From Patulibacter sp. (GTDB lineage: Bacteria; Actinomycetota; Thermoleophilia; Solirubrobacterales; Solirubrobacteraceae): a stretch of DNA of 46,752 bases. The stretch spans positions 1 to 46,752 of the forward strand of contig NZ_JAURWA010000099.1 in the NCBI RefSeq assembly GCF_030655195.1, in the 5' to 3' direction. Below the pieces are notes generated by a model, which was given only the letters and a program-made list of their open reading frames with translations, did not search any database and had not been told where the DNA came from. Below are positions 4,416 to 23,941 of this stretch, in pieces. The position numbers and the translations under genes are program-made. Every line of letters begins with the position of its first letter. The first letter of the stretch is position 1.

Positions 4416-6548
4416 ATGGCCGTCGAACACCCACACGGTCCGTCGACGGGCATAGGCCGCCCCCGTCAGTCCGCCGCCCTCCTCGCGATCGGGTTCGCTG
4501 TCGCGGCCGTCGTCCTCGTCCTCGTCGTCTGCTCCGGGCAGGGGTGGCGCGACCGCTACGTCCAGCCCACCCTCGCGCAGGAGCCCGTGGCGACGCTCGC
4601 GATCGGAACGCCGGCGCAGGCCTGCGCCGACGTCGGGCCGTTGCCGGACGGGGCCGCGCGCGCGGCGTTCACGGTCGCAGCCGGCGGATCCGGGGCTACG
4701 GTCCGGACGCTCACCTCGGGGCTCGGCGTGCCGGCCGTCCGTGGCGCGCCCGCCGTCGTGGGCGCCTCCACCGTGATCCGGCCCGGCCTTGGTGCGGTCG
4801 ACCCCGACGGGCGGCCCCGCCGCGTCTGCCTGGAGCACGTCGCCGGACCGCCGGTCGCGGTCCTCGGCCAGGGCGACGTCCCCGCCCTGCGGCTCACGGG
4901 CGCCGAGCCCGAGACGGTCTGGAGCGTGCTCGGCGCGATCGTCGACCGCTCCACCCGGGCCACGAGTGCCCCCGCGCGCTGGGTCGGCCTGCCCGGCGCG
5001 CTCGTCCTCCTGGCGCTCGCAAGCGGCGCGGCGCTCGTCCTGGTCGTCCTGGCGTGGTCGCCCGGCCGGCTCCCGTCCCGGGGGACGTGGGCGGTCGTCG
5101 TCGGGGTGGCGCTGGCGCACGGCGCGGCCTGGTCGATCGTGACGCCGCCGTTCGAGGTGCCCGACGAGTGGAGCCATTTCCATTATGCCGATTACGTCGC
5201 GGACCACGGCACGCTCCCCAACGGCCTGGCCGCCGGGGTGCCGGTCGCCCCGGATCAGGAGATGGCCATGATCCTCGTCGGCGCCAACGGCCTCCCGGGA
5301 CACCCGTCGCTGCGACCGCCGTGGAGCGCCGCGGACGACTCCCGCATCCGTGCCGGTCTGGCGGCGATCCCGGACGCGTCGGTGCCCGACGGCCGGACGT
5401 CCGCGACGGGCCAGCCGCCGGGGTACTACCTGCTCGCTGGGGCCGTCGCGAAGGTCGCGGCCGGGAACGTCCTGGACCGGGTCTGGCAGGTCCGTCTCGT
5501 CGGGATCCTCGCGCTCGGGGCGCTGGCCGCCGGGGCCATGGCGCTCGCGCGTCGCCTGGCGCCGCGGCGGCCCGAGTGGGCCGTCACCGTCGGGCTGCTC
5601 ACCGGCCTCGCGCCCCTCCTGGGCTTCCTCGCCGGGGGCGTCACGCCCGACGTCCCCCTCGTCACGGCCGCGGTCTGGACGATGTGGGCGGCCCTGACGT
5701 TCGTCGACCAACCGGACCGCTGGACCGGATTGCGACTCGGGATGCTCCTCGTGGCGCTGATCCTTGTGAAGCTGACGGCGCTGGCGCTCGTCCCCGGGAT
5801 CGCCGTGCTCGTGCTCCTCGCGCTCGCGATCGCGGTGCGGCGCGGGTGGCCGCCGGGCTCTACCGGGGCGGTCGCGGGGCTCGCGGCGGGCCTCGCCGTG
5901 CCGCTGCTCGCCTACATCGCGTGGTGCGTCGCGAGCGACCGCTCGATCGTCCCCGGCGTCCTCACCGCGGTCGTGCGGTCCGAGGTGGACGCGACGGTCG
6001 CCCCGGGCTCCGGCCCGGTCTCGTTCCTCTCGTCGGCCTGGCAGCTCTACCTGCCCCGTCTGCCGGGCATCGACGACCTCGCTCCCGGCGTCGGGCCACG
6101 GACGTTTTGGCTGAACGGGTTCGTCGGCCGCTACGGCTGGCTCGACGTCGGACTGCCGACGTGGGTCGAGAAGGTCCTGCCGCCCCTGTGGATCGGGATC
6201 GCCTTCCTGGGGGTGCGCGGCGTGCGGGGGGTCCTGCCCGCACGTGACGCCGGTCGCGCGGCGTGGGTGCGGCAGGTAGCGATCGCCGCCGCCTTCCTGC
6301 TGCTGCTCGCCGGGCTGCTCCTCACGATCGCGCGCGCCGACTACTCGGCGCTCGTGTCGGGCGGCGACCGCTTCACGCAGCCGCGCTACCTGCTGCCCGC
6401 GCTGCCGGTCGCCGTCGTGGTGGTCCTGCTCGCCCTCCGCGGCACGCCGGACCGCGTCCGACCGTGGTTCGCGGTCGGGCTCGTCGGAGTCGCGGTGCTG
6501 CACGTCCTCGCCTCGATCCTGGCGACGGCCGGGCGCTTCTACGTCTGA
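4416..6548 (+). CDS. DUF2142 membrane protein with fused two-Cys extracytoplasmic domain
   Basis: This 710-aa multi-spanning protein is probably a GT-C-type glycosyltransferase (DUF2142 belongs to the GT-C clan) using lipid-linked sugars outside the membrane. It has one N-terminal helix (about 20-39), then a soluble domain containing Cys70 and Cys138, a second helix (about 190-213), then the DUF2142 region of ten or more helices. Family marks include PPFEVPDEWSHFHY (244-257), a WQLYLPRLPG segment and RYLLPALP near the end. The first 215 residues match the separate single-domain genes next to the other two DUF2142 genes here, so this gene looks like a natural fusion of both parts. It sits just after the DPM-like GT2. 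Its last 20 codons are repeated, in degraded form, after the stop. Confidence 0.85.
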   Translation: MAVEHPHGPSTGIGRPRQSAALLAIGFAVAAVVLVLVVCSGQGWRDRYVQPTLAQEPVATLAIGTPAQACADVGPLPDGAARAAFTVAAGGSGATVRTLTSGLGVPAVRGAPAVVGASTVIRPGLGAVDPDGRPRRVCLEHVAGPPVAVLGQGDVPALRLTGAEPETVWSVLGAIVDRSTRATSAPARWVGLPGALVLLALASGAALVLVVLAWSPGRLPSRGTWAVVVGVALAHGAAWSIVTPPFEVPDEWSHFHYADYVADHGTLPNGLAAGVPVAPDQEMAMILVGANGLPGHPSLRPPWSAADDSRIRAGLAAIPDASVPDGRTSATGQPPGYYLLAGAVAKVAAGNVLDRVWQVRLVGILALGALAAGAMALARRLAPRRPEWAVTVGLLTGLAPLLGFLAGGVTPDVPLVTAAVWTMWAALTFVDQPDRWTGLRLGMLLVALILVKLTALALVPGIAVLVLLALAIAVRRGWPPGSTGAVAGLAAGLAVPLLAYIAWCVASDRSIVPGVLTAVVRSEVDATVAPGSGPVSFLSSAWQLYLPRLPGIDDLAPGVGPRTFWLNGFVGRYGWLDVGLPTWVEKVLPPLWIGIAFLGVRGVRGVLPARDAGRAAWVRQVAIAAAFLLLLAGLLLTIARADYSALVSGGDRFTQPRYLLPALPVAVVVVLLALRGTPDRVRPWFAVGLVGVAVLHVLASILATAGRFYV

Positions 6549-6594
6549 GCCGCGGTCCTGCCCGTCGTCGCGTCGATCCTGACGACGGCTAGGC
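6481..6594. repeat. Degenerate 60-bp tandem duplication across a stop codon
   Basis: Bases 6481-6534 match 6541-6594 at about 83 percent with a 60-base offset. Copy 1 encodes the last transmembrane helix of the DUF2142 protein. Copy 2 starts with its stop codon and, read in the same frame, still encodes a similar peptide (AAVLPVVASILTTA against VAVLHVLASILATA). Copy 2 runs into the 3' end of the convergent glycosyltransferase gene. Confidence 0.65.
6562..6588. terminator. Hairpin between convergent genes
   Basis: An 8-bp stem (6562-6569 with 6581-6588) with an 11-base loop lies in the 40-base gap between two converging genes, so it could stop transcription from both sides. It is built from the second copy of the 60-bp duplication. 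There is no U-tract. Confidence 0.4.
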
Positions 6595-8607: not shown

Positions 8608-8614
8608 GCCGTCC

Positions 8615-8620
8615 AGTGTG
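8615..8620 (-). promoter_or_regulatory. CACACT box, possible leaderless promoter
   Basis: The box ends 7 bases before the GTG at 8607. It lacks the first T of TANNNT, so it is a weaker case than the others. Confidence 0.35.
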
Positions 8621-8675
8621 AACCGGATCGCGGCGCGGCGCGGTGGCGACGGGATCGCCGGCCGGGGTCGCGGGC

Positions 8676-8697
8676 GCCGGGGCGCAGCCGCCCCGGC
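8676..8697 (-). terminator. GC hairpin after a GT2 gene
   Basis: A perfect 9-bp stem (8676-8684 with 8689-8697) with a four-base loop lies 6 bases beyond the stop of the gene ending at 8704. There is no U-tract. Confidence 0.55.
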
Positions 8698-8703
8698 CCC
8701 GGA

Positions 8704-9787: not shown

Positions 9788-11089
9788 GTGTCCGCGGCAG
9801 CGCCCCCAGTGCCCTCCGCCCGTCGCCGGGTGCTGCCCGCGTGGCCGTGGGCGATCCTCGCCGTGGCGCTGGCCCTGCGCGTGGTCGTCGTGCTCGCCAC
9901 GCCCGGCTACTTGCCCTTCGGCGACCCCGCGGACTACGACCGGATCGGCCGGTTCCTGGAGTACTTCGGGACCTACCCGCCCACGACGTTCGCCGACCCG
10001 GCCGGCCCGGCTGCGCTGCGCCCGCCGGGCTACCCCTACTTCCTCGCGGCCGTCTACGAGGTCGTCGGCGTCCGCTGGACGGTCGTGCGGCTGATCGCGG
10101 CGCTCCTGGGGACCGTGGGGGTCCTGCTGCTCTGGGACGTCGTGCGGCGCCTCTGGGACGTCCGGCTGGCGATCTGGACGGCGGCCGTCGCGGCGGTGCT
10201 CCCGAGCCTCGTCTGGGTCGGCGGCGGGCTGACGGCGGAGTCGCTGTTCGTCCCGCTGGTGCTCGGGGCCGTCTGGGCGGTGGTCCGCCACCGCGACGCA
10301 GGGGGCAGCGCGCTCTGGGTGCTGGCCGCCGGCCTGCTGCTCGGCGTCGCGGTGCTCACGCGCAGCAACGGCGGGATCCTGTTGCTGCCGCTGCTGGTCG
10401 CCGCGTGGGTCCCCCGTCGTCGGTGGACCGACCCGGTCGTGCTGCTGCTCGGGACCGTCGTCGCGCTGACGCCGTGGACGGTCCGCAACGCGGAGGCCTT
10501 CGGGGCGTTCGCCCCGCTGGGCACGCAGTCGGGGTTCACGATCGCGGGTGCCTACAACTCCAATGCCGACACCGGCGGGAAGTACTACGCGGCGTGGCAG
10601 CTGCCGATGGACGTCCCCGCGCTGAAGCCGCTGTTCGGCCGACCGGACCTGAACGAGGCGCAGGTCGACGCCGAGCTCCGGGATCGGGGCATCGCCTTCG
10701 CCAAGGACCACCCGGGGTTCGTCGTGGGCGCGACCGGCGTCCACGCCCTGCAGCTGTTCCACCTGTGGCCCGACATCGACCTGGGCAGCGGCAACTCGTT
10801 CCGCGAGACCGGGGTGCCCGAGTCGCTGTGGGGCGAGTACACCGCGGCGTTCTGGGTCTTCCTCGCCCTGGTCGTCGCCGGGATCGTGCTGCTCGTGCGG
10901 CGGCACGAACGGCCCGGTCCGCTGTGGCTGTGGGCGATCCCCGTCCTGATCGTGCTGAGCGTCGTGCCGCTGCTGGGCCCGCCGCGCTACCGGATCCCCG
11001 CCGACCCGTTCCTGGCCATCCTCGCGGGCGTGGCGCTCACGGCCCTGAGGGACCGTCTCCGGTCGCCGGGACTGTCGCGCCCGGCGTAG
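9788..11089 (+). CDS. GT-C glycosyltransferase, ArnT/PMT (GT39/GT83-like)
   Basis: This integral membrane protein (433 aa) should transfer a sugar from a polyprenyl-phosphate donor to an acceptor on the outer face. After a first helix, the loop has PFGDPADYDRIGRFL, the acidic position expected in PMT-type enzymes, then RPPGYPYFLA. About ten helices follow, with GLTAESLFVPL and the C-terminal PPRYRIPADPFLAILAG, a common end pattern in this superfamily. GTG at 9788 is chosen because a TACACT box lies 7 bases before it; the upstream extension is shadow sequence. It precedes a two-gene DUF2142 module on the same strand. The substrate is not predictable from the sequence. Confidence 0.85.
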   Translation: MSAAAPPVPSARRRVLPAWPWAILAVALALRVVVVLATPGYLPFGDPADYDRIGRFLEYFGTYPPTTFADPAGPAALRPPGYPYFLAAVYEVVGVRWTVVRLIAALLGTVGVLLLWDVVRRLWDVRLAIWTAAVAAVLPSLVWVGGGLTAESLFVPLVLGAVWAVVRHRDAGGSALWVLAAGLLLGVAVLTRSNGGILLLPLLVAAWVPRRRWTDPVVLLLGTVVALTPWTVRNAEAFGAFAPLGTQSGFTIAGAYNSNADTGGKYYAAWQLPMDVPALKPLFGRPDLNEAQVDAELRDRGIAFAKDHPGFVVGATGVHALQLFHLWPDIDLGSGNSFRETGVPESLWGEYTAAFWVFLALVVAGIVLLVRRHERPGPLWLWAIPVLIVLSVVPLLGPPRYRIPADPFLAILAGVALTALRDRLRSPGLSRPA

Positions 11090-11167: not shown

Positions 11168-11980
11168 ATGTCCTCCACGCCTGACCCACCCGGCTCGCGC
11201 GACCGGACGCTGCCCTGGCGCGCGCTCGTCGTCGCCGTCGTCGTCCTCGTCGTGGGCGTCCTCCCATTGGCCGGCAGCCTGCTGGATCGTCGGGACGAGC
11301 GGCTGGCGACGAACACGCGCCTGCTCGGCAACTCGAGCTGGTCCGCGATTGAGCCGGGGGCCCGCGAGTGCGCGGACACCACGAGCGACGACGCCCTCGC
11401 GCTCCCGGAAGGGGCCACCGGGGTCGAGATGTTCGTCCGCCGCCCCGTGCGCCCGGCTCCGCGACTTTCCGTGACGGTCACCGGGCGGCGCGCGTCCGTC
11501 CGGGGGACGGCAGCGGCGTCGACGCCCGAGGGCGGCGGTCCCGTCCTCGTCGAGCTCGACCGCGACCTCCCCGCCAGCATGCGGCGGATCTGCGTCCGCA
11601 ACGTGGGTGCGCAGCGGGTGGAGCTGGCGCGGTCCCTCGACGCCGGCGGGAACGGCCGCACGCTGCTCACCGCGGGCAAGGGGGCGAACGAGCCCGAGCG
11701 CGAGGCGCGGCCGACCCTCCGGTTCGACCTTATCGGCCGGCAGGACGCCGTCGCCGGGTCGCTGCTCGGCCGCGGCCTGGACCACGCGACGGCGTTCAAG
11801 CCGGACGGGGTCGGGCCGCTCGTCATCCTGGGCGGCCTCGTCCTCGTGCTCTTCGGCGGCGGGGCCGGGCTCGTACTGGTCGCGCGGACCCCCTCCGACC
11901 CCGAGCCGTCCGGCGGCACGGACGTGCCTCGCGCCGCCGGTCCACTGGCCGGTCCGGACGGACGGCGGGGCGGATGGTGA
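11168..11980 (+). CDS. Two-Cys extracytoplasmic membrane protein, partner of DUF2142
   Basis: This 270-aa protein of no named family has one N-terminal helix (about 17-36), a soluble segment predicted outside the membrane, a second helix (about 213-236) and a short charged tail inside. The soluble part has beta-type alternation and two cysteines, Cys68 and Cys142, the second in RRICVRNVG. Cys spacing and layout match residues 1-215 of the protein at 4416-6548 and the protein at 23111-23941. The ATG at 11168 follows a probable promoter at 11115. Its stop overlaps the start of the DUF2142 gene (ATGGTGA), so the two are co-translated. It may bind the glycan acceptor or stabilise the transferase; that is inference. 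Confidence 0.75.
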   Translation: MSSTPDPPGSRDRTLPWRALVVAVVVLVVGVLPLAGSLLDRRDERLATNTRLLGNSSWSAIEPGARECADTTSDDALALPEGATGVEMFVRRPVRPAPRLSVTVTGRRASVRGTAAASTPEGGGPVLVELDRDLPASMRRICVRNVGAQRVELARSLDAGGNGRTLLTAGKGANEPEREARPTLRFDLIGRQDAVAGSLLGRGLDHATAFKPDGVGPLVILGGLVLVLFGGGAGLVLVARTPSDPEPSGGTDVPRAAGPLAGPDGRRGGW

Positions 11981-13464
11981 GGTCCGACCGCTGGTGGCGC
12001 CGCGCGACGCTCCTCGTCGTCCTCGTCGCCTTCGTCCACGCCGCGTCGTGGGCGGTGCTGACGCCGCTCTTCCAGGGCCCGGACGAGATCGTTCACTACG
12101 GCTATACGGAGCGCGTGGCCGAGACCGGGCGTCCGCCGACGCCCGCCGGGAGCGGCGCCTTCAGCTCGATCTCCACGACCCAGACGCTGATCACCATCCC
12201 CTGGTCGATCACCGGGCTGCCGTCGTGGGACCGCGACGACAGCAACGCGCAGGACCGGGTCATGAAGCGGTTCGACGCCCCGGAGGCCAACCGCGACGCG
12301 CCCCAGGCCGCGGGATATCAAGCGGGCAACCCACCGCTCTACAACTACGTGACCGCGGTGCCGTACCTGGCCGCGAAGGCGACGGGCGCCACCGTCGAGG
12401 GCCGGATGATGGCGATGCGGCTGACAACGGCGCTCATCGGAGCCCTCGCGGTCCTCTTCGTGCTGCTCTTCCTCCGGGAGCTGCTCCCGCGGCGCCCCGT
12501 GGCGGTCGTGGTCGGGGCGCTGGCCGTGGCGCTGCAGCCGGTCTACGGCTGGCTCGCCGGGACCGTCAACAACGACCTCGCGGTGACGCTCGGCGGGACG
12601 ATCCTGCTCTACGGGGCGGCCCGTGCCTTCCGCCGCGGTCTCGACCTGCGCTCGGCGCTGATCATCGGGGCCGGCGCGTCGATCGGGATGCTCTCGAAGG
12701 TCTCTGCCTACGGCCTGCTCGCGGCGGCCGCCTGGTGCACCGCGTGGCTCTTGATCGGGCAGCGCCGACGGATCAGGATCGACGCCCGTCGGCTCGCCCT
12801 CGCGGTGGTCGTGATCGTCGTCCTCGCGTACCTGCCCCAGTGGGTCGTCGCCCAGCTGCGGCAGCCGCAAGGGTTGCTCGCCGGGGCCGAGAACGCGGCC
12901 GCGACGACGCCCGGGTCGGGCGCGCCGAGCGGCCTGGGCAAGGTCCGCGACGTCCTCTCGTACGTCTGGCAGTTCTACCTGCCGCGGCTCCCGGGGATGG
13001 ACGTTCAATTCCGAGGCTATCCGGACAACCCGGTCTGGCAGGTCTACCTCCAGCCGTTCATGGGCCGCTTCGGCTGGTTCCAGTACGGCTTCTCCACCGG
13101 TCAGTCCCAGCGGCTCCTGGGGATCTTGGCCGTCGCCCTCGTCGCGGCCCTCGCCGGTCTGTGGCGCCTGCGGTCCACCGCCCGACGGCACTGGGCCGCG
13201 CTGATCGGGCTCGTTGGCTCGTTCGTCGGCTACGCCGTGATGATCAACATCCGGGGCCAGCAGTTCCGCGACGAGACCGGTCAGGGCTTCGAGCAGGTCC
13301 GCTACCTGTTCCCGATGATCGGCTTCTACGGGCTGCTCGTGGCGCTCGCCCTGACCGGCCTGCCCGCGCGGTGGCGCCGCCCCGTCGCCGTCGGTGCCGT
13401 CGCGCTGATGCTCGTGCAGGTCGTGGCCTCCTGGGGCCTGACCTTCGACCGCTACTTCCTCTGA
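11974..13464 (+). CDS. DUF2142 family membrane protein (GT-C-like)
   Basis: The 496-aa multi-pass protein has the DUF2142 pattern: first helix, then PLFQGPDEIVHYGY (31-44), GNPPLYNYVTAVPYLAAKA, WQFYLPRLPGMD, and RYLFPMIGFYGLL close to the C-terminus. It lacks the fused N-terminal domain of the 4416-6548 protein; that domain is supplied by the gene immediately upstream, with a 7-bp overlap. GTG at 11977 is an alternative start. It probably acts as an extracytoplasmic glycosyltransferase using lipid-linked sugars. The family has no defined substrate that I can assert. A GC hairpin separates it from the convergent HAD gene. Confidence 0.82.
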   Translation: MVRSDRWWRRATLLVVLVAFVHAASWAVLTPLFQGPDEIVHYGYTERVAETGRPPTPAGSGAFSSISTTQTLITIPWSITGLPSWDRDDSNAQDRVMKRFDAPEANRDAPQAAGYQAGNPPLYNYVTAVPYLAAKATGATVEGRMMAMRLTTALIGALAVLFVLLFLRELLPRRPVAVVVGALAVALQPVYGWLAGTVNNDLAVTLGGTILLYGAARAFRRGLDLRSALIIGAGASIGMLSKVSAYGLLAAAAWCTAWLLIGQRRRIRIDARRLALAVVVIVVLAYLPQWVVAQLRQPQGLLAGAENAAATTPGSGAPSGLGKVRDVLSYVWQFYLPRLPGMDVQFRGYPDNPVWQVYLQPFMGRFGWFQYGFSTGQSQRLLGILAVALVAALAGLWRLRSTARRHWAALIGLVGSFVGYAVMINIRGQQFRDETGQGFEQVRYLFPMIGFYGLLVALALTGLPARWRRPVAVGAVALMLVQVVASWGLTFDRYFL

Positions 13465-13523: not shown

Positions 13524-16178
13524 TCAGCCGCGCCGCGCGGCCCGCAGGCCCTTGGTGACCCGCCAGCTCAGCGACTGCTCCATCGCGCCCCGGACCGCCT
13601 CGGACGAGGCCATGCGGGCGGGGGAGCGCGGATCGCCGACGGGAGGGGGGGACCACGGGAGGACGGCGAGCAGGAGCTCGACGTCGACGCGGTAGATCTC
13701 CTCGTTCGTGACGTGGCCCGTCGCCCAGGACAGCGTCGCATCGCCGTGGTGGGTGGCGAACACGCCGTCGCCGAGGGTCGTGGCGTGGAGCAACTCGATC
13801 TGGCCGGACCGGGCGTGCTCCTCGAGGCGGACCACCACGGGCGCGTCGCGGTCGCGGAGGTGGAGCCGCAGCTCGAGGCGGTCAATCCGGGCGATCACCG
13901 GCTCCGTGCCGAGCTTCAGGTGCAGCTTGGCGATGTGTCGGCCTTGCACGTTGGTGCCGACGTGGGTCAGCCCGCGGACGTTGCGCCGCGGCTCGCCGAC
14001 GTAGGGGTCGCCGACGTTGACGCCCTCGCCGGCGATCGTGATGCGCCCGCTCTCGAGCGGGGTGGAGAGGACGCCGAGGGGGATCTCGCCGGTCTCGTGG
14101 AGCATCGCCGCGTCGGCGATGGCCGGGTCGGCGGTACGGGCGACGCCGTAGGGCCAGTAGACGCTCTGCATCGGCAGCTGGCTGAGCCCCTCGGGGACGA
14201 CGTAGCGGATCGTCGCCGCCGCCTCGGGGTTGGCCAGCGCCTCGTTGCCCGACGAGCCCTGGTTCTCGTCGTGGACCCACGCGCCGAACCGCGTCGCCTC
14301 GTCGGCGGTCGGCGCCGCCACGGAGCGGGCGATCTGCGGGATCAGGGCCTCGCCCAGGTCGGCCAGGTCGTCGAGGCCCTCGACGACGCCGCGGTAGCGG
14401 TGGTACTCGCGCTGGAAGGCGAGGATGCCGGCGCGCACCGCCCCCGCCTCGGCCGTCTGCCGGGCGGGCAGCGGGTTCGGGGCGAAGACCGGCTCGAGGT
14501 CGGCGGTCAGGTCGATCTGGCTGCCGTGATCGGGCATGCAGACCTGCTCGAGGATCTCCGGCGAGCGGACGATCGCCCGGCACGCCGCCTCGGGCGCGCC
14601 CATGTTCGCGAGGAACCCGCGGACCTCGGCGCCGGACGCGACCGTGGTGCTGGCCCCCTCGTGGGTGACCATGTAGAAGCCGATGACGTGGCGCTCGACG
14701 CCCGCCTGCTTCAGGAGCGCCACGATCCGCCGCTGGATCGAGGCGCCCCAGCCGAGGTCGCACACGAGCAGCGGCCCGTTCGGGGCGTCGCGGTTGATCG
14801 CCTCGACGGCGCGCGCCCGGAGCACGGCCGCCCGCTCGGAGACCGTCGCCTGCAGCGCCGGGTCCTCCAGCGCGCGGATCAGGGCGTCGCGAGCCGTCGC
14901 GTCCGAGGACGGGAACCCAAGGTGCGGCCGCAGGCTCGGGACCCGGACGGGGTCGATGCCGAGCGTCTCCAGCAGCAGGCCCAGCGGCGCGGCCGAACGC
15001 CGCTCGAGCAGCGTCAGGAAGTCGGACCGGTCCGCGCTGCCGATCGCGGCGATCGTCGAGAGATGCCGGTTGAGGTTGAGCATCCGCGTGTCGAGCGGCA
15101 GGTCGTTGGCGCGTGCAGCACGGTCGACGAGCTCGCCCAGGAACGAGCCCTCGCGCATGAGACACATGAGCCGTCCGGTGCCGACGACGGCGGCCTCCCG
15201 GGCCGTCCACTCGGCGAAGCCCGTGAACGCCGGCCCGAGCACCTGGGCGCCGTAGCGCCAGAACGGCTGGAGCGCCGACGGGACGTCGGCCAGGTCGGCG
15301 TGCCGGGCGGCCTTCGCGCGAAGCTGGGCCAGCACCGAGTCGCCGAGCGCGACCGGGTGGGGGTGCGACGCCGGCTTGTCGGTCATCGGCCGCGGGCAGG
15401 GGTGCGCGAAGCGCTCCTCCTGCTCGATGATCGCCGCGAGCTGCGGGTCGCGGCGCTCGAGCAGGATCCCCGTGATCCCACGCTTCTTCGCCGGGGCGAT
15501 GTCCGCGAGCGGGTTGTCGCCGAGGTGGACGACGGACTCCGGGTCGGCGTCGACGTGCTCCAGGGCGCGGTCGAAGAGCGTGCCGGCCTTATTCACGCGA
15601 TGGTCGGAGGACGTGACGATCGCGTGCCAGACCACGCCGTCGAGCCCTGGCTGGTCCAGGAGCGTCGCGAGCTGGTCGGCGGACAGGTAGGTGTCGGAGA
15701 CCGCGAGGACCGGGACGCCGATCGCGTTGGCGTACCGCAGCGCCTCGGCGACGTCGAGGTCGGGCACCGTGATCTCGCGCTCCAGCGCGACCTCGAGGGC
15801 CACGACCTCGTCCCGCGTCAGGCCGGGGTGGACCCACTCGGGGATCCGGTCGTAGATCTCGTGCAGGCGGATCTCGGGCGACTCGATGGCCTCGCCCAGG
15901 AGCATCCGGGACTCGTGCTCCGCCTTGCGGCGGAGGATCGCGAAGGGGCCTGGTGCCAGGGACTCGTGGAGGTGGTCGGCGTCGCGCAGCCGGTGCCCGA
16001 GACGGACGAAGACGTCCTCCGGCTCCGGCACGCGGCGCCAGAGGACCGTGTCGAAGACGTCGGTGAAGAGCGCCCGTGCCGCCCCGCTCTCGAGGAGGTC
16101 GAACGCCCGGTGCAGGCCGGTGGGGATCGCCGCCGGCCGGGTCGCGGGGGTGCGCGTGGTGCTCGGTTCGTCGCCCAT
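13524..16178 (-). CDS. Large HAD-superfamily domain protein of a glycan locus
   Basis: This 884-aa protein has an N-terminal HAD phosphatase-like domain resembling the predicted hydrolases (COG5610 type) found among surface-glycan genes. Motif I is D40-V-F-D-T44, motif II lies in SDTYLS (161-166), Lys197 is in NKAGTLFD, and motif IV is HLGDNPLADI (218-227, Asp221 and Asp226). The middle (about 270-640) and C-terminal parts belong to no family I know; the middle contains GPLLVCDLGWGASIQRR. Phe at the third position of motif I replaces the usual acid/base Asp, so its reaction is uncertain. It could act on a phosphorylated sugar or cyclitol. The ATG at 16178 is 8 bases after a TACGGT box. The next gene upstream is a paralogue without the catalytic residues. 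Confidence 0.8.
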   Translation of the reverse strand: MGDEPSTTRTPATRPAAIPTGLHRAFDLLESGAARALFTDVFDTVLWRRVPEPEDVFVRLGHRLRDADHLHESLAPGPFAILRRKAEHESRMLLGEAIESPEIRLHEIYDRIPEWVHPGLTRDEVVALEVALEREITVPDLDVAEALRYANAIGVPVLAVSDTYLSADQLATLLDQPGLDGVVWHAIVTSSDHRVNKAGTLFDRALEHVDADPESVVHLGDNPLADIAPAKKRGITGILLERRDPQLAAIIEQEERFAHPCPRPMTDKPASHPHPVALGDSVLAQLRAKAARHADLADVPSALQPFWRYGAQVLGPAFTGFAEWTAREAAVVGTGRLMCLMREGSFLGELVDRAARANDLPLDTRMLNLNRHLSTIAAIGSADRSDFLTLLERRSAAPLGLLLETLGIDPVRVPSLRPHLGFPSSDATARDALIRALEDPALQATVSERAAVLRARAVEAINRDAPNGPLLVCDLGWGASIQRRIVALLKQAGVERHVIGFYMVTHEGASTTVASGAEVRGFLANMGAPEAACRAIVRSPEILEQVCMPDHGSQIDLTADLEPVFAPNPLPARQTAEAGAVRAGILAFQREYHRYRGVVEGLDDLADLGEALIPQIARSVAAPTADEATRFGAWVHDENQGSSGNEALANPEAAATIRYVVPEGLSQLPMQSVYWPYGVARTADPAIADAAMLHETGEIPLGVLSTPLESGRITIAGEGVNVGDPYVGEPRRNVRGLTHVGTNVQGRHIAKLHLKLGTEPVIARIDRLELRLHLRDRDAPVVVRLEEHARSGQIELLHATTLGDGVFATHHGDATLSWATGHVTNEEIYRVDVELLLAVLPWSPPPVGDPRSPARMASSEAVRGAMEQSLSWRVTKGLRAARRG

Positions 16179-16186
16179 CACCGACC

Positions 16187-16226: not shown

Positions 16227-18110
16227 TCAGGCGCGGAGGTGCCGCACGACTGCCCGCAGGCGCAGGACGAGGCGGTAGGCGCGGCTGCCGACCACTGCGT
16301 CGCGGGTCGCCAGCTCGCCGCGGGCCGCCGTCAGAGCGCGCTCGAGCGGATCGATGACCCGTGCGATCCAGGCGGGCGGGTCGAGGGCGTCCGCGGGTCG
16401 CGCCGCCGGCACGACGGAGGGCGTCGTCGAAGACGCTGCGAGTCGCAGCGCCAGCCCGGGACCGGAGAACACGAGCGCCGCGGGGTCGCCGGCCACGGCG
16501 AGCAGGCGCAGGTGCTGGCGGAGGAACGCCAGGACGCCCCGGCGCGCGGCCTCGACTCGGAGCCCGCGCAGATCGTCCGCTGATGCGGACGCGGACCCGG
16601 CGAGCGAAGTCCTCGAGCGGTCCGGCGCGCCGGCCAGCTCCTCGATGCGGGACCGCCACGACGTCGCGGCCGCGTGCGCGTCCGCCGGGGTCCCGAGGTT
16701 GGCGAGGTAGCCCAGGACCTCGCCGCCGGCCGGCCCGAGGATGGCGTCGGCCGCGGTCGCGTCGCCCGCGAGGTGCAGACCGACCACGTGACGCGGCGTG
16801 CCCGCGGCGGCGAGGGCCCGGGCGAGCTGCGCCTGCAGGCGGCCCGGTCCGCCCACGTGGCACAGGACGAGAGGCACGCCCGGGTGCTCGGCCGGGGCGG
16901 CGATGCCGGCGTCCAGCTCGGCGGAGAGCTCCGCGGCGCGGGCGGCCGCGCGCTCCTGCAGGGCCGGGTCCGCGGCGAGCGCCGTCGCGAGCGACGCGAC
17001 GTCGTCGTGTCCGGCCGGCAGGCCGAGGATCTCGGCGACCTCTGCGAGGCGGCCGTCGCGCCCCAGCGCGAGCGTCAGCGCGGTGCCGACCGCGGCGCCG
17101 CCCCCCGCCGCGGCGGCCACGAGTGCCGGCGTCACGGGTAGGACCCGGACGGGCACCGGGAGTCCGAGGGCCCGGACGATCTCGGCGACGAGCTCGGGAA
17201 GGAGACCACCCCGATCGGCGGCGACGACGATCGGCGCGCCCGCGTGCCCGGCGGCGTGCCGGACGGACCACTCCGCGAAGCCGACGAGCACTGGGCCGAG
17301 CTCGGCGGCGCCGGCGACCCACGCGTCTCGCACGGCGCCGGGGGTCGCCCCGGCCTCACCGGAGATCGCGACGCGGGCCACGAGACGCTCGAGCGCCGTC
17401 GCGTCCCGCGGACCGGCGCCGAGCCGTACGACGTGCAGGGACTCGTGGTCGATCGTGGTGGTCCGGGCGGTGAGGAGCAGGATCGGTCGGGGCGCGCTCC
17501 CCGCGGCTGCGAGGGCCTGACCCGCGGCGTCGCCGTCGTCGTCCGTGCCGGCCCGGACCGCCCGCCACGTGACGGCGTCGAGCGCGGGGTGCTCCAAGCG
17601 GCGCCGGAGCTGGTCCGCGGAGAGCGGTCCTGCCGAGATCGCGGAGATCGGCAGCCGGGCGGCCGCGGCCGCCTCCAGGAACAGGGCGACGTCGGGGTCG
17701 GGCACCGTCGTCCCGGCGATGAGGTCCAGCTCGAGGTCCGCGACGCCGTGACGGGTCGCGCCGGGGTGGCACCACTCCGGGACGAGCGCCCAGATCGCGG
17801 CCAGCGGCGCCCCCGAGCCGGCCCGCTCGGCGGCCCGCTCCCGCAGCACGGCGAAGGACTCCGGGGTGAGCGACGGGTGGAGGTGCCCGGCGGACTCCAG
17901 GCGGCGCCCGAGCTCCCGGTGTCGCTGGGCCTCGTCGACTGTGGGCCACGTGGCTCCGCCCTCGACGTCGGCGACGACGGCGCCGACGACACCTCGCTCG
18001 AGCAGCTCCCAGGCCGCGACGAGCTCGGCCGGGACGGTGTCCGGCCGACGGACGTCGGTGCCCGCCTGCGCGGCCGTCCCGGCGGCACCGGCACCGCTCG
18101 CGGCACTCAT
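16227..18110 (-). CDS. Catalytically degenerate paralogue of the HAD protein
   Basis: The 627-aa protein is related to the 13524-16178 product along most of its length. Matching pairs include LERGVVGAVVADV with LESGAARALFTDV, VPEWCHPGATR with IPEWVHPGLTR, LGPVLVGFAEW with LGPAFTGFAEW, LGYLANLGTP with RGFLANMGAP, and RRGVLAFLRQ with RAGILAFQRE. The HAD motifs are lost: DVFDT is DVEGG (48-52), SDTYLS is SAGPLS (159-164), and the Lys and GDNPLAD motifs are gone. It also lacks the last ~250 residues. The ATG overlaps the upstream methyltransferase stop (ATGA), so the two form an operon. It is unusually Ala-rich. A non-catalytic partner or regulator of the active HAD protein is the simplest guess; function is unknown. 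Confidence 0.75.
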   Translation of the reverse strand: MSAASGAGAAGTAAQAGTDVRRPDTVPAELVAAWELLERGVVGAVVADVEGGATWPTVDEAQRHRELGRRLESAGHLHPSLTPESFAVLRERAAERAGSGAPLAAIWALVPEWCHPGATRHGVADLELDLIAGTTVPDPDVALFLEAAAAARLPISAISAGPLSADQLRRRLEHPALDAVTWRAVRAGTDDDGDAAGQALAAAGSAPRPILLLTARTTTIDHESLHVVRLGAGPRDATALERLVARVAISGEAGATPGAVRDAWVAGAAELGPVLVGFAEWSVRHAAGHAGAPIVVAADRGGLLPELVAEIVRALGLPVPVRVLPVTPALVAAAAGGGAAVGTALTLALGRDGRLAEVAEILGLPAGHDDVASLATALAADPALQERAAARAAELSAELDAGIAAPAEHPGVPLVLCHVGGPGRLQAQLARALAAAGTPRHVVGLHLAGDATAADAILGPAGGEVLGYLANLGTPADAHAAATSWRSRIEELAGAPDRSRTSLAGSASASADDLRGLRVEAARRGVLAFLRQHLRLLAVAGDPAALVFSGPGLALRLAASSTTPSVVPAARPADALDPPAWIARVIDPLERALTAARGELATRDAVVGSRAYRLVLRLRAVVRHLRA

Positions 18111-19115: not shown

Positions 19116-19122
19116 GCCGCGG

Positions 19123-19161: not shown

Positions 19162-19205
19162 TCCCGTCCAGGACGAGGGACTCCGGCCTGCCGCCCGGCG
19201 CCCGG

Positions 19206-20126
19206 CTAGAGCCGCTCGGCGATCCGCGGGGCCTCGCGGTTGAAGTACCAGAAGCCCCCGAAGAGCAGCGCGAGCGTGATCGCCGTGGGGATCAGCAGCA
19301 CCCACCAGGCGCCGGCGGAGTCCAGGGCGCTGGGGTGGCTCGGGGCGATCATCGCGTGGCGCGACTGCTGCAGGATCGCCGAGAACGGGTTGAACATCAG
19401 GATCCGCTCGATCGTGTCGCCGAACTTCGCCTGGATCGCCTGGACCGGGACGAGCACGCCCGAGGCGTAGAACATCGCCTGCAGCACGACCTCCCAGATC
19501 GGCCGCACGTCGCGGAACCGCACGTAGAGCGCCGACAAGATCATCGCGATCGCCAGGCAGAGGACGCCGAGCAGGAGCAGCAGGAACGGCAGCTCGAGCC
19601 ACGTCCAGCGGATCTCGGCCCCGGACGCGATCAGGAAGATCAGCACCGGGATGAGGTTGAGGACCAGGTTGAACGACGCGAGGATGACGACCGAGATCGG
19701 CACCGCCATGCGCGGGAAGTCGATCTTGCGGACGAGGTTCTCGCGGTCGACCATCGCCGACACCGCACCGCCCGTCGCGTCGCCCAGGAACGTGAACAGC
19801 ACGATGCCCAGGAGCAGCGTCGGGCCGTAGAGCTCGACGTCGTTGCCCAGCCGGACGACGACCGTGAAGACGACCATCAGGACGCCGAAGAGCAGCATCG
19901 GCCGGGCCAGCTGCCAGAAGTACCCGAGGAACGAGCCGTAGAAGCGGAGCTTGAACTCGGCCGTGGCCATCGTCCACGCCAGGCCCATCATGCGCCGGAA
20001 GTCGGTGCCCAGCGCCGACGGGCCCTTGATCGGCGGCTTCAGCGTCGAGCGGTCGATCTCGCTGAAGTCGCGGGCCACCGGCTTGGCGTTGAAGCCGTCG
20101 GGGACCGTCGTCTGGGGAGCGCTCAC
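19206..20126 (-). CDS. wzm: Polysaccharide ABC exporter permease
   Basis: This is the membrane half of an ABC-2-type exporter that moves a lipid-linked polysaccharide across the membrane. The 306-aa protein has a soluble N-terminal lead of about 60 residues, then FYGSFLGYFWQLARP at the membrane entry and six predicted helices. ENLVRKIDFPRM is the conserved cytoplasmic loop of polysaccharide exporters. The GTG start overlaps the stop of the ATPase gene by 4 bases (GTGA), confirming a transporter pair. The family is KpsM/Wzm/TagG-like, so export of teichoic-acid-type or O-antigen-type polymer cannot be told apart. A weak hairpin follows. Confidence 0.9.
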   Translation of the reverse strand: MSAPQTTVPDGFNAKPVARDFSEIDRSTLKPPIKGPSALGTDFRRMMGLAWTMATAEFKLRFYGSFLGYFWQLARPMLLFGVLMVVFTVVVRLGNDVELYGPTLLLGIVLFTFLGDATGGAVSAMVDRENLVRKIDFPRMAVPISVVILASFNLVLNLIPVLIFLIASGAEIRWTWLELPFLLLLLGVLCLAIAMILSALYVRFRDVRPIWEVVLQAMFYASGVLVPVQAIQAKFGDTIERILMFNPFSAILQQSRHAMIAPSHPSALDSAGAWWVLLIPTAITLALLFGGFWYFNREAPRIAERL

Positions 20127-21436
20127 GTGGACACCGCCGGGTCGTCGGTCGCAGCGGTGAGCTCGAGCCGGAAGGGGGGGTGCATCGTGCCGAGCGTCTT
20201 GACGTGCCCGGTCACGAGCAGCTTGTGCATCCGCGGGCGACGGTCGAACCACTCCAGGCCCGACTCGTCCTTGCACACCGACGGCGTTAGGACGTAGCGC
20301 CCGGGGGCGAGGTAGGACTCGAAGGTGATCCGCGACTCGTGGACCGAGCCGGCCTCGAAGCGCCCGGCGGGCGGCAGGTCGAGGTTGTTGGGCTCGAAGA
20401 CGGTGACGCCCTGGTCGGTCAGGACGCTCATGCCGAAGAGCGGGTTCTCGACGGTCTCGTGGAACGCCACGCGCATCGCGAACGTGCAGGACGACCCGAA
20501 GGTCAGGACCTCGACGCGGTCGCCGTTCTCGTCCTCGACCCACGAGTCGACGATCTCCGCCTTCTGGTTGCCGTGGCGGTCGACGTCGTGGTTGACCGAG
20601 CCGGCGAGCGAGATCGTCGTGCGGTCCGCCGACGTCTCCTCGTCGTCGGGGTCCGCGGCGATCTCGGCGGCCACCTCGGCGCGGGCGTCGGCCGAGAAGT
20701 TCATGTCGAGGTACTGGTCCCCGATCTCCTCGGGGTCGCCGATCGCCACGACGGTGCCGCGCTCGAGCAGCAGCGCCCGGTCGCAGAAGCGCTTGACGGC
20801 GCTCATGTCGTGGGTGACGAGGATGACCGTGGCGCCGCTGTCGCGGATCCGCTCGAACTCGTCGAAGCACTTCTGCTGGAACGCGGCGTCGCCGACGGCG
20901 AGGACCTCGTCGATCAGCAGGATCTCGGCGTCGACCTGGATCATCACCGCGAACGCCAGCCGGACGAGCATGCCCGAGCTGTAGTTCTTGATCTTCAGGT
21001 CGGCGAAGTCGCCCAGCTCGGCGAACTCGAGGATCTTGTCGAACCTTGCACGGGCCTCGGAGCGGCCGAGCCCGAGCATCTGCGCGTTCAGCATGACGTT
21101 GTCGTACGCGGCGAGGTCGGGGTTGAAGCCGACCCCGAGCTCGATGAACGTCGACATGCGCCCGTCGACGTGGATCGCGCCCTCGTCGATCCCGTAGATG
21201 CCCGCCAGGGTCTTGAGCATCGTCGACTTGCCCGACCCGTTGCGACCGACGACGCCGAAGAACTCGCCGCGCTCGACGTGGAACGAGACGTTGCGCAGCG
21301 AGCGCATCCGGCGGACCTGACCGCGGCGGAGCGGGTGCAGCGCGCGCTCCTTGAGCGTGTGGGCACCCTCGGTCGGGATCTCGAAGGTCTTCGAGATGCC
21401 GTCGACGAGGATGGCTGGGGGTGCCTGGTTCGTCAT
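20123..21436 (-). CDS. wzt: Polysaccharide ABC exporter ATPase with C-terminal glycan-binding-type domain
   Basis: The 437-aa protein powers the exporter. The nucleotide-binding domain (about 8-255) has Walker A GRNGSGKST (64-72), signature YSSGM (152-156), Walker B ILLIDE (172-177) and the switch His in LVTHDMS. An acidic linker (about 255-285) leads to a beta-rich C-terminal domain (about 285-435) of the Wzt_C type, which in characterised systems binds the completed polymer end before export. This implies export coupled to a specific terminal modification, which the methyltransferases or HAD proteins nearby might provide (inference). The ATG lies 13 bases after a TACGCT box. It is co-translated with the permease. 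Confidence 0.9.
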   Translation of the reverse strand: MTNQAPPAILVDGISKTFEIPTEGAHTLKERALHPLRRGQVRRMRSLRNVSFHVERGEFFGVVGRNGSGKSTMLKTLAGIYGIDEGAIHVDGRMSTFIELGVGFNPDLAAYDNVMLNAQMLGLGRSEARARFDKILEFAELGDFADLKIKNYSSGMLVRLAFAVMIQVDAEILLIDEVLAVGDAAFQQKCFDEFERIRDSGATVILVTHDMSAVKRFCDRALLLERGTVVAIGDPEEIGDQYLDMNFSADARAEVAAEIAADPDDEETSADRTTISLAGSVNHDVDRHGNQKAEIVDSWVEDENGDRVEVLTFGSSCTFAMRVAFHETVENPLFGMSVLTDQGVTVFEPNNLDLPPAGRFEAGSVHESRITFESYLAPGRYVLTPSVCKDESGLEWFDRRPRMHKLLVTGHVKTLGTMHPPFRLELTAATDDPAVST

Positions 21437-21449
21437 GGGCCGACTCGAC

Positions 21450-21455
21450 AGCGTA
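21450..21455 (-). promoter_or_regulatory. TACGCT -10 box before wzt
   Basis: The box ends 13 bases before the wzt ATG, so the leader would be only about 6 bases. Confidence 0.45.
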
Positions 21456-21535
21456 GAGGCTGATCGGCTCCGTCCACCCCGCGCGTCCCCGGATCACCGC
21501 GTACACCTGGGCGGCACGGGGGCGCATCCGGGAGC

Positions 21536-21541
21536 TATGGT
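21536..21541 (+). promoter_or_regulatory. TATGGT -10 box, leaderless promoter
   Basis: The box ends 8 bases before the ATG at 21550. It is back to back with the wzt promoter in a 113-base divergent region. Confidence 0.5.
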
Positions 21542-21549
21542 TGCGGCCG

Positions 21550-23118
21550 ATGCGCTCCGTCCTGCCGGCGCGGCGTCGTCCGGCAGCTGGCGAGCCGACG
21601 ACCCCCGCGCGTCGCATCAGCGTCCCGCGGCCGCTGCTGCTCCTCCTCTTCGTCGTTTTCGTCACGACGAGCACGTGGGCCTTCGCCACCCCCGCCTGGC
21701 AGGTCCCGGACGAGCCGCAGCACTTCGGCTACGCGGAGACGCTGGTCGAGCAGGGCGGCAAGCCGACGCGGGGAGACGCCGAGGACCCCGCGGCGCGCAT
21801 CGCCGGCATCCCCGCCAGTGGGCAGTACGGCGAGATCTCCCGCCAGTCGCGCGACGCGATGGCCCAGAGCAACGGCTACCCCGTCGCCTTCAACACGTAC
21901 GCGAAGCCGCCGTGGAGCTCGGAGGCCCAGCGCCGCTACGACGCGATCGCCGACCGGGGCAGCCGCAAGGACGGGGGCCGACGGACCGGCGCCACGGGCT
22001 ACCCGCCGCTCTACTACGCGATCGAGACCATCCCGTACCGGCTCGCGTCGTCGGGCACCGCGATCGACCGCCTCTACGCGATGCGCTGGGTCTCCGGGCT
22101 CTGGGCGCTGGTCGGGACGATCGGTGCGTGGCTGCTGGCCGGCGAGGTCTTCCGGCGTCGCCGCCTGCCGCAGCTCGCCGCCGCCGCGACGATCGGCCTG
22201 TGGCCGATGATCTCCTTCCTCTCGGGCGGGGTGAACCCGGACGCGATGCTGACGGCGCTGTCGCTGCTCGTCCTGTGGCTGGCGGTCCGCGTCGCGCTGC
22301 ACGGCACGACGTGGAGACCGGCGCTCGCGCTGCTCGTCCTCGTGGGGGCGGCGACGGCGACGAAGGTCTCCGGTGCTGCGCTCGCTCCCGCGGCGGCCTT
22401 CGCGATCCTCTACGGCCTGCCGGTGGTGCGATCGCGGGTCGGGGCCAGCGTGCCCCGGCTGCTCGGCCTGGTCGCGGCGCTGGTGGTGGGTGCGCTGGCC
22501 GTCGTTTTCGTCGGCGGCGCCCTGAAGGTCTTCCCGCCCCAGCTGCAGGTGATCGCCGACACCCGGCCGAACCTCCGCGAGTTCGGCTCCTACCTGTGGC
22601 AGTTCTACCTGCCGAAGCTGGCCTTCATGGACGACATGGTGTTCCAGTACCCGGTGGTTTCCGAACGGCCCGTCCTGAACCTCTGGATCGGGTCGTCGTG
22701 GGGGGCCTTCGGGTGGGTGAACGTGTGGTTCCCGCGCTGGGCGATGCACCTGTTCCTCGCGATCACGGTCCTGATCGGCGTGGCCGCCGCCCGGGCGGGG
22801 CGGATCGGCTGGAAAGGGCGCGAGCGCGAGCGCAGCGCGCCGTTCGCGGCGGCAATGGTCGTGCTGGCGATCGCGGCGCTCGGCGTCTTCGGCGGCGTGC
22901 ACCTGCAGGACTTCATCAACGGCACCGACGGCAACCTGCCGTTCGCCCAGGGGCGCTACCTGTTCCCGGTCGCCGGCATCGGCGCACTCGCCGTCGGAGC
23001 GGCCGCCATGGCCTTCCCGCGGCGCCTGCGCCCGGGAGCCGCCGGAGGCTGGCTGGCGTTCCTGGTGGTGCTGCAGATCGCCGCTCTGGCGCTGACGGCC
23101 ACGAGGTACTATGCGTAG
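21550..23118 (+). CDS. DUF2142 family membrane protein (GT-C-like)
   Basis: The 522-aa polytopic protein is the third DUF2142 member here. After the first helix come PAWQVPDEPQHFGY (48-61), TGYPPLYYAIETIPYRLA, SGGVNPDAMLT, WQFYLPKLAFMDD and RYLFPVAGIGALA. It should be an extracytoplasmic glycosyltransferase or related enzyme using a lipid-linked sugar. The start is set by a TATGGT box 8 bases before the ATG. Its 3' end overlaps the start of a two-Cys membrane protein gene by 8 bases, so partner order is reversed relative to 11168-13464. A DPM-like GT2 lies downstream. Compared with the 496-aa member it has a longer loop (about 75-130) after the PDE motif. Confidence 0.82.
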   Translation: MRSVLPARRRPAAGEPTTPARRISVPRPLLLLLFVVFVTTSTWAFATPAWQVPDEPQHFGYAETLVEQGGKPTRGDAEDPAARIAGIPASGQYGEISRQSRDAMAQSNGYPVAFNTYAKPPWSSEAQRRYDAIADRGSRKDGGRRTGATGYPPLYYAIETIPYRLASSGTAIDRLYAMRWVSGLWALVGTIGAWLLAGEVFRRRRLPQLAAAATIGLWPMISFLSGGVNPDAMLTALSLLVLWLAVRVALHGTTWRPALALLVLVGAATATKVSGAALAPAAAFAILYGLPVVRSRVGASVPRLLGLVAALVVGALAVVFVGGALKVFPPQLQVIADTRPNLREFGSYLWQFYLPKLAFMDDMVFQYPVVSERPVLNLWIGSSWGAFGWVNVWFPRWAMHLFLAITVLIGVAAARAGRIGWKGRERERSAPFAAAMVVLAIAALGVFGGVHLQDFINGTDGNLPFAQGRYLFPVAGIGALAVGAAAMAFPRRLRPGAAGGWLAFLVVLQIAALALTATRYYA

Positions 23119-23941
23119 GTCGTCGATCGCCGTCGGGGTCGCCATGCTGGTGGTCCTCGTCAGCGGCGCCCTGGTGCTCGTCGACCGCGGCAGCAAGGGC
23201 CGCGAGGACCAGCCGGTCCGCTTCGGCGTCCTCGCCAAGAAGTCGATCGGCCTGCTGCCGGCAGGCAACGAGGCGTGCCAGTCCCCCGTCGACATCGACC
23301 GCGCGGTGAGCCAGGTCGGGCTGGCGGTCGACACCGCGGGGCGACCGGGGCCCGCCCTCGAGGTCTCCGTCCGCGACCTCCGCACCCGCCGGGTGCTGCA
23401 ACGGGCCCGCGTTCCCGGCGGCTACGAGATCGCCCTCGGTGGATTCGTGACCGCACCCCTCGAGGCGGCGGTCACCCCCGAGCGGTCGGTCGCGGTCTGC
23501 GCCCGGAACCTGGGCCGCCGGAGCCTCTCCCTCGTGGGCGACAACACCGTCGACTACAGCGTCGCGCTCGACGGTCGTCGAGAGCTCGACGGTGACTGGG
23601 GCGTCTTCTTCCCGCTCGCCGAGTCCGGTCGGCGCACGTATCTCGAGATGGCCTCCGACATGGTGCGGCGGGCCACGGTGCTGCGCCCGGGGATCGTGAC
23701 GCCCGTCTTCTACGGGGTGATGGCGCTGCTGCTGGTCGTCGCCGCACCGCTGCTCCTGTGGCGCGCCATCGTCGCGGCGGGCGACACCGATGACCGGCTG
23801 GCGACGACCCCGGGGCCCCGGCCGGAACCCCCGACGGTGGACGACGACGCGCGGGCCGCCACGGCAGGCACCGACGGCCCCTCGCGGTCGGATGCCCCCC
23901 GGGACGACGGCACCGGCGGCCCCGTGCCCGACCCGCGCTGA
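23111..23941 (+). CDS. Two-Cys extracytoplasmic membrane protein, partner of DUF2142
   Basis: The 276-aa protein has one N-terminal helix (about 6-25), an extracytoplasmic beta-type domain, a second helix (about 196-216) and a disordered Pro/Asp/Thr-rich cytoplasmic tail. Cys56 and Cys130, the latter in VAVCARNLG, are 74 residues apart, as in the 11168-11980 protein (Cys68, Cys142), and could form a disulfide. A degenerate trace of RNLG/RNVG after the second Cys links the proteins despite low overall identity. It overlaps the preceding DUF2142 gene by 8 bases, so the products are likely made together. No known family was recognised. Confidence 0.75.
   Translation: MRRSSIAVGVAMLVVLVSGALVLVDRGSKGREDQPVRFGVLAKKSIGLLPAGNEACQSPVDIDRAVSQVGLAVDTAGRPGPALEVSVRDLRTRRVLQRARVPGGYEIALGGFVTAPLEAAVTPERSVAVCARNLGRRSLSLVGDNTVDYSVALDGRRELDGDWGVFFPLAESGRRTYLEMASDMVRRATVLRPGIVTPVFYGVMALLLVVAAPLLLWRAIVAAGDTDDRLATTPGPRPEPPTVDDDARAATAGTDGPSRSDAPRDDGTGGPVPDPR

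Follow-up and report, generated by a model that had tools for sequence, protein, structure and literature searches.

Do the small two-cysteine membrane domains that stand beside the DUF2142 proteins of a Patulibacter genome form two-part glycosyltransferases with them? The window, by which we mean the whole stretch analysed (contig NZ_JAURWA010000099.1, 46,752 nt), belongs to a 4.55-Mb Patulibacter sp. assembly of 198 contigs. It carries three modules, each consisting of a DUF2142 protein, a putative glycosyltransferase of the GT-C class, and a companion domain in which a two-cysteine extracytoplasmic part lies between two transmembrane (TM) segments. The whole assembly has only three Pfam DUF2142 (PF09913) matches, all in this window, with scores of 58.7 (module 1), 49.3 (module 2) and 92.3 bits (module 3) against a cut-off of 30.1. 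The original prediction, made from the DNA alone, had noted that the companion is fused in module 1, encoded by an upstream gene in module 2 and by a downstream gene in module 3. These three arrangements were confirmed, and the coordinates, motifs and cysteine positions held on rechecking. As described below, the modules belong to a two-part GT-C system that is real and extends across the order, and its companion subunit has no family name.

One companion family in three arrangements

The fused protein of module 1 contains the cysteine pair C70/C138 and the motifs PDEWSH, YLPRL and RYLLP, with two extra cysteines in the first TM helix (C39) and the GT-C part (C504). The corresponding motifs are PDEIVH, YLPRL and RYLFP in the DUF2142 protein of module 2, whose companion has C68/C142 (numbered from the ATG), and PDEPQH, YLPKL and RYLFP in module 3, whose companion has C56/C130. 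The RYL[LF]P motif, initially described as the end of these proteins, is present in all three, but it lies about 50 residues ahead of the C-terminus.

Compared directly, the separate companions of modules 2 and 3 were 27% identical over 139 aa, which is not significant (E 0.17). A profile built from relatives joined all three companions (E-values in Table 1), in agreement with the original proposal of one family; all three were among its training rows. The training set comprised 71 rows (69 different) of adjacent small TM-domain-TM proteins and long N-terminal extensions. Their source was 99 DUF2142 neighbourhoods (L052-L150) drawn from the family, the order and the class of the window, most of which are near-complete matches scoring over the cut-off; the near-duplicate genome G132 was excluded, as were several fragments at contig edges. 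Both cysteines were found in 74 of 74 aligned companions, spaced 63-78 residues apart, and no row had a third cysteine inside the domain; the conserved pair may form a structural disulfide. The other positions kept in at least 60% of the rows were glycines, a proline, a leucine, a valine, an N-terminal arginine and the segment before and in TM2. Membrane-proximal conservation, in module 3 companion numbering, involved S176 (56/74), R187 (65/74) and W199 (51/71), and also G197.

Pfam models at E up to 0.1 gave hits to only 11 unrelated models among the 74 companions, each model with one member (best E 0.006), and NCBIfam (E 0.01) and PHROGs (E 0.1) gave no match for the three window companions. 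A virus-borne origin was rejected because of the latter result, and a search for plasmid-borne relatives of one window DUF2142 protein (P0004) returned no match. Sequence searches of the PDB gave nothing useful (best E 0.41 for a companion and 0.093 for DUF2142). The family was thus rightly called undescribed as far as a Pfam, NCBIfam or PHROGs name is concerned, whereas its layout has a precedent in EmbA, EmbB and EmbC. No earlier description of the pairing was found in the literature searched, which excluded most subscription papers and every bioRxiv preprint.

Pairing across Solirubrobacterales

In 100 sources (window included), the companion profile matched 88 stretches, all beside or fused with DUF2142: 36 downstream, 30 fused and 22 upstream (in L126, a single gene accounts for two of the upstream stretches, both fragments). 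Because the profile had been trained on DUF2142 neighbours, a genome-wide search is the fairer test. Across 146 genomes of the family, 102 companion matches were found in 76 genomes, and 96 of the 102 adjoin or join DUF2142. Specifically, 84 lay no more than 1.5 kb from a DUF2142 match that Pfam scores above the cut-off (strand ignored), and 12 of the other 18 had a neighbouring DUF2142 relative under the Pfam cut-off. The remainder comprised two matches at contig ends (L163 and L166), three weak fragments (L167-L169, E 4e-4 to 6e-4) and one clear orphan (L159). Companions without a DUF2142 neighbour, which the original prediction had named as a finding that would count against it, were therefore not common, with one clear case in 146 genomes.

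In the reverse direction, 89 of the 98 full-length DUF2142 modules of the same order had a companion, 87 by profile and two by eye (L134 and L141); when modules near contig ends were dropped on both sides, the count was 81 of 87. Among the nine without a companion, L053, L069 and L143 lay at contig ends, and L052, L054, L055, L060, L121 and L129 did not. Five of the latter six matched an in-house DUF2142 profile more poorly (E 4e-24 to 2e-45), and L121 matched it at 9e-80. One further companion-less DUF2142 protein of the order, like L053 also a poorer profile match, was located at a contig end (L082), and genome G095 has both kinds, L055 without and L165 with a companion. Outside the order, none of seven modules from other orders of the class had a companion, though the DUF2142 profile matched several of these modules with E-values of 1e-73 to 1e-92. 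Of the 97 Pfam DUF2142 matches above the cut-off listed for the whole family, 13 had no companion within 1.5 kb; these included partial matches and matches at contig ends. Three fused companions (L134, L141 and L171) were too divergent for the profile and were found by eye. An additional set of 22 loci, about two thirds of which were already in the first searches and which is not an independent count, had a companion by profile in 20 cases and by eye in one (L171); L190 was cut by the contig start.

A companion common to all Actinomycetota was not apparent among the candidates scored: only 12 of 396 phylum genomes matched, seven of the same family and five with weak fragments (E 2e-4 or worse). 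In the class search, 41 of 299 genomes matched, 39 of the same order (G053 with a weak fragment only) and two elsewhere with weak fragments. Convincing companions were found only in Solirubrobacterales in these searches, where first-pass candidates were scored in each genome (at most seven for the phylum, nine for the class and 20 for the family), and distant copies may be missed. The term 'obligate partner' thus fits in the sense of near-fixed pairing in one DUF2142 subfamily of one order, and it does not extend to DUF2142 in general.

In a quickly built maximum-likelihood tree of the DUF2142 partners (86 rows), the downstream arrangement formed a single clade of 36 rows, with 100 in the Shimodaira-Hasegawa-like approximate likelihood ratio test, while the fused and upstream forms were intermingled. 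The changes needed on this tree were seven for the fused state, six for the upstream state and seven for all three states together, where 200 shuffles averaged 39. On this tree, downstream order arose once, and fused and upstream forms interchanged several times. The nearest relatives of module 1 (L117 and L107) and module 3 (L063) are all of the same genus, and module 2 sits on a long branch. Companion and DUF2142 distances were correlated (r 0.78; maximum of 0.07 in 2000 shuffles, or 0.36 when shuffled within arrangement), and both proteins had the same nearest neighbour in 53 of 86 cases versus at most six in 1000 shuffles. The median identity was 22% for companions versus 28% for DUF2142.

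Linked inheritance explains part of this co-divergence, and the link survived rearrangement. That the two genes are neighbours by inheritance only, with no shared function, is highly improbable. All convincing pairs come from one order, so some linkage by descent is expected, but the link persisted through a swap of gene order and through several transitions between the fused and the separate state, and most members of the DUF2142 subfamily keep the companion. The association of companion and DUF2142 is real and not due to chance.

Predicted structures and known GT-C systems

The AlphaFold2 model of the fused module 1 protein (41 rows) had a predicted local distance difference test score (pLDDT) of 89.5 and a predicted template modelling score (pTM) of 0.90. 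It shows a helix (16-40), nine strands (46-161), a second helix (185-213) and then, as read from the model by eye, eleven TM helices, one of them broken (386-406); it ends with the last TM helix (682-709) and has no C-terminal carbohydrate-binding module (CBM). The module 3 companion alone (23 companion rows) reached a pLDDT of 78.7 and a pTM of 0.61, with block means of 89-97 over residues 51-140, and was predicted as a beta-sandwich of ten strands between helices 2-29 and 196-232. The fused and downstream domains, for which differing folds had been named as counter-evidence, were thus each predicted as a beta-sandwich between two TM helices. The pTM of the fused model suggests that the prediction gives the 200-residue companion domain a fixed position, docked on the GT-C part. 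Strands 2 and 7 of the classical eight-strand jelly roll lie side by side, so a disulfide across these strands would be possible.

When the fused model was compared with the PDB by Foldseek, EmbB and EmbA-EmbB chains came first by E-value (5.9e-6 to 1.8e-4), followed by ArnT (8e-4), EmbB and EmbC again, Pmt4, OST/PglB, ALG9/12, PimE and DPY19. The predicted model and this list led by GT-C enzymes, at low TM-scores, point to a GT-C fold for module 1, in line with the earlier placement of DUF2142 in the GT-C clan. Seven residues (D250, H254, R360, D412, K452, R657 and Y658) were invariant in 23 fused rows and E251 was kept in at least 90% of them. D250 and E251 directly follow the TM helix 222-242, in the predicted first outer loop. 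The other matches of the companion alone, besides those discussed below, were also weak and included FlgD, PHR and GOLD domains.

The nearest precedent in layout is the Emb group (GT53). EmbB has been described as TM1, beta domain and TM2 followed by an 11-TM GT-C core (PMC7341804), the N-terminal domain being a jelly roll between TM1 and TM2 (PMC7305291), and module 1 is predicted to have the same order. A cysteine pair 60-64 residues apart was present in nine of 14 Emb N-domains as read by script, three of the nine having further cysteines; in the other five, read by eye, four had a pair and L213 had neither cysteine. EmbB differs in having two more TM helices, a C-terminal CBM and a single chain, and it superposes poorly. 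Moreover, none of the 74 companions matched Arabino_trans_N (PF17689) with an E-value of 0.1 or below, and this model gave no hit in the source assembly. Reciprocal hmmsearch runs between companions and Emb N-domains gave best E-values of 0.0074 (9 sequences) and 0.006 (71 sequences), the first being partly a TM segment. The Emb profile comparisons used nine of 14 rows after a motif filter (L204, L209, L213, L214 and L215 were dropped), and one hhalign run used all 14, at least one of them (L206) in the wrong frame. The companion unit may work like an Emb-type unit and may descend from one, and we do not assign it as a member; the mechanism is likely Emb-like in layout.

Two other systems resemble the modules. 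In lactococci, WpsI, an 11-TM DUF2142 protein, is paired with WpsH, a partner with an outer loop between membrane segments, and the two have been proposed as polymerase and regulator (PMC12599335); PMC10821137 gives their roles both ways round, and the WpsH and WpsI of PMC13390465 are unrelated proteins. That system serves a Firmicute cell-wall polysaccharide. GT136 of Citrobacter youngae (ORF12), acting in three-component pentofuranose transfer, is a GT-C enzyme with a beta-rich acceptor-binding CBM, which differs from the companion in being C-terminal, fused and non-essential (PMC11127046).

By analogy with WpsH, the companion might regulate the chain length made by a DUF2142 polymerase or act as its co-polymerase, which we regard as improbable. 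Wzz-type proteins have long helices, whereas the companion is predicted as a beta-sandwich without them, and a one-to-one N-terminal fusion in 30 rows would be odd for an oligomeric ruler. A Wzz-type regulator was rejected on this unfit fold, and none of the Pfam matches of the 74 companions (E 0.1 or lower) was to a Wzz model.

Proposed mechanism and gene context

We consider it rather probable that each module is a two-part extracytoplasmic glycosyltransferase using polyprenyl-phosphate sugars, with the companion packed on the GT-C protein and probably aiding acceptor handling. A neighbouring glycosyltransferase of family GT2 would make the polyprenyl-phosphate sugar inside the cell, with a DUF2304 helper in module 3; for module 1, this is likely the GT2 encoded 19 bases ahead (stop to start). 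DUF2142 would be the catalytic GT-C subunit, and PDExxHFxY after its TM1 would supply the acidic catalytic residue outside the membrane. The companion would be a disulfide-stabilised beta-sandwich with two TM anchors, packing where EmbA, EmbB and EmbC have TM1, N-terminal domain and TM2. Once docked, it would complete the enzyme and probably help to hold or admit the acceptor, possibly a glycopolymer exported by the Wzm/Wzt-type transporter of the window.

This mechanism assumes a defined topology. Since PDExxH follows TM1, where GT-C enzymes keep an acidic residue, DUF2142 should start inside and, with eleven TM helices, end outside; the N-terminus and the TM2 end of the companion would both be inside. 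A direct fusion would then have to be companion-first. All companion-DUF2142 fusions found were indeed N-terminal (30 profile rows plus L134, L141 and L171), though 36 modules have a downstream companion gene. A different kind of fusion was seen in Solirubrobacter soli DSM 22325 (L181:5358-8168), where a second DUF2142 module has its companion joined to the multi-TM protein that follows; that protein, which has no Pfam match, carries a DE motif and has an outer domain at its C-terminus.

Several observations weigh against this reading. With respect to the pairing, the orphan companion (L159:1858-2595) adjoins a small membrane protein and a GT2 and has no DUF2142 in 7.6 kb, six order members off contig ends lack a companion, and linkage alone can yield co-divergence. 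With respect to structure, DSSP placed the cysteines in strands 2 and 7 of the module 3 companion but in strands 3 and 7 of module 1. The Emb matches lead by E-value only (EmbB 5.9e-6), with a root-mean-square deviation of 22-26 A over 730-860 columns, and the TM-scores were 0.2-0.46 overall, ArnT, Pmt4 and ALG12 equalling or beating Emb. For the companion alone, the sole match with E below 0.001 was a viral capsid protein; CBM6, CBM35 and CBM4 ranked within the top 50 of 1755 matches, with E about 0.01 and TM-scores of at most about 0.42. Homology between companion and Emb N-domain was rejected at the sensitivity of the profile comparison (hhalign probability below 1%), and longer stretches gave 2.4% (whole chain) and 3.6% (GT-C part). 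Mean net charges of 1.6 before companion TM1 and 0.4 after TM2, compared with 0.7 and 0.9 on the sides facing outward, back the assumed topology weakly and not cleanly. Finally, no conserved polar or aromatic cluster resembling a sugar site was found in the companion domain among the 74 aligned companions. Conservation thus gives no backing to the acceptor binding first suggested for the domain, what is conserved being the cysteines, the glycines and the membrane-proximal segment.

The companion data are fitted as well by a stabilising role, in which the companion would only help the GT-C enzyme to fold, insert into the membrane or assemble, with no glycan contact; we regard this as possible. 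PIG-X, which serves PIG-M, offers a parallel. The best-conserved positions other than cysteine and glycine lie toward the C-terminus near the membrane (S176, R187 and W199), the fused model predicts defined docking, and there are no shared residues resembling a sugar site, all of which favour stabilisation. However, the extracytoplasmic part is a full predicted beta-sandwich whose sequence varies more than that of its partner, as would also be expected with varied acceptors, and the beta domains of EmbC, AftD and GT136 have been tied to acceptor binding (PMC11127046).

The proposed two-part enzyme would draw on donors made by neighbouring genes (Table 1). As first noted, two modules stand beside GT2 genes, one before module 1 and one after module 3; the upstream neighbour of module 2 is instead a PMT_2-type GT-C gene, for which no companion of its own was recognised. 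The module 2 companion is thus flanked by two GT-C genes. Neighbouring GT2 and DUF2304 genes were surveyed within 4 kb with in-house profiles at permissive thresholds. Counted without a background control, a GT2 closer to the module 1 type than to the module 3 type occurred at 20 of 30 fused modules, and DUF2304 at 16 of 36 downstream-type, two of 22 upstream-type and none of 30 fused modules. Neither gene of these kinds was seen within 4 kb of 6/30 fused, 9/36 downstream and 5/22 upstream modules.

Table 1 Features of the window discussed in the text
Feature	Position	Strand	Details
GT2, DPM/AglJ-like, four C-terminal TM segments	3206..4396	+	PF00535 E 8.6e-26; TIGR04182 (AglJ) E 1.7e-44, under model cut-off
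Module 1, companion (about residues 1-221) N-terminally fused to DUF2142, predicted GT-C	4416..6548	+	710 aa; PF09913 E 5.8e-16 at residues 235-664
Module 1, companion part	4416-5147	+	Companion profile E 5.5e-17
PMT_2-type GT-C, directly upstream of module 2 companion	9830..11089	+	PF13231 E 3.7e-19; in-house DUF2142 profile E 7e-24
Module 2 companion, separate upstream gene, 7-base overlap with DUF2142 start	11168..11980	+	Companion profile E 9.3e-40
Module 2 DUF2142, putative GT-C	11974..13464	+	496 aa; PF09913 E 4.2e-13
ABC-type polysaccharide exporter located between modules 2 and 3 (ABC-2 permease; ATPase carrying Wzt_C domain)	19209-21436	-	Pfam
Module 3 DUF2142, putative GT-C	21550..23118	+	522 aa; PF09913 E 3.6e-26
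Module 3 companion, separate downstream gene, 8-base overlap with DUF2142 end	23111..23941	+	Companion profile E 1.3e-53
GT2, GacI/PpgS-like, candidate polyprenyl-phosphate sugar synthase	24086..24844	+	PF00535 E 2.5e-22; NF058614 (PpgS) E 2.6e-31, under model cut-off
DUF2304 small membrane protein, GacJ/WpsB-like partner of GT2	24844..25257	+	PF10066 E 4.9e-23
Cytidylyltransferase	26242-26964	-	Pfam
NeuB	32115-33164	-	Pfam
DegT aminotransferase	34521-35669	-	Pfam
Polysacc_synt_2	35669-36649	-	Pfam

A DUF2304 gene directly downstream of gacI homologues is typical of GacJ-like proteins (PMC8327497), and GacI and GacJ together make N-acetylglucosamine-phosphate-undecaprenol. With its GacI/GacJ-like pair, module 3 is therefore expected to use a donor of the N-acetylhexosamine type, and module 1 another hexose. 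The four-component GacI/GacJ/GacK/GacL type resembles the modules in leading from GT2 and DUF2304 through a lipid-phosphate sugar to a GT-C enzyme (PMC8327497, PMC10821137), and it differs in that the sections consulted mention no companion subunit. Moreover, a Pfam scan of 30 window proteins, from the fourth gene to position 41438, found no flippase of the GtrA, Wzx or MATE type.

On the acceptor side, the ABC-2 permease and the ATPase with its Wzt_C domain make an exported polymer likely. Four genes between 26242 and 36649 (Table 1) resemble a nonulosonic-acid set of the pseudaminic or legionaminic type, and the exported glycan may therefore carry such sugars. Two further minus-strand proteins, of 627 aa (16230-18110) and 547 aa (26964-28604), had no Pfam match at E 0.001; the former adjoins an 885-aa HAD-hydrolase protein (13527-16181).

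Taken together, the DUF2142 membrane enzymes of Solirubrobacterales probably add sugars outside the cell. DUF2142 is scarcely treated in the literature searched, and its partner is unnamed in Pfam and NCBIfam. The companion can serve as a marker for locating surface-glycan genes in an order of bacteria that has received little study. Moreover, the occurrence of the extracytoplasmic domain in free and fused form is a natural experiment on the role of Emb-like N-terminal domains, be it acceptor handling, stability or both. A further idea, which we consider rather improbable, is that the companion is a detachable specificity subunit and that the Emb-type order of TM1, beta domain, TM2 and GT-C core represents such a pair in its final, fused state. 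If this is true, companion subunits might be exchangeable between catalytic partners, and the assembly history of Emb-like enzymes would be traceable in Solirubrobacterales, where two-gene, swapped and fused states stand side by side.

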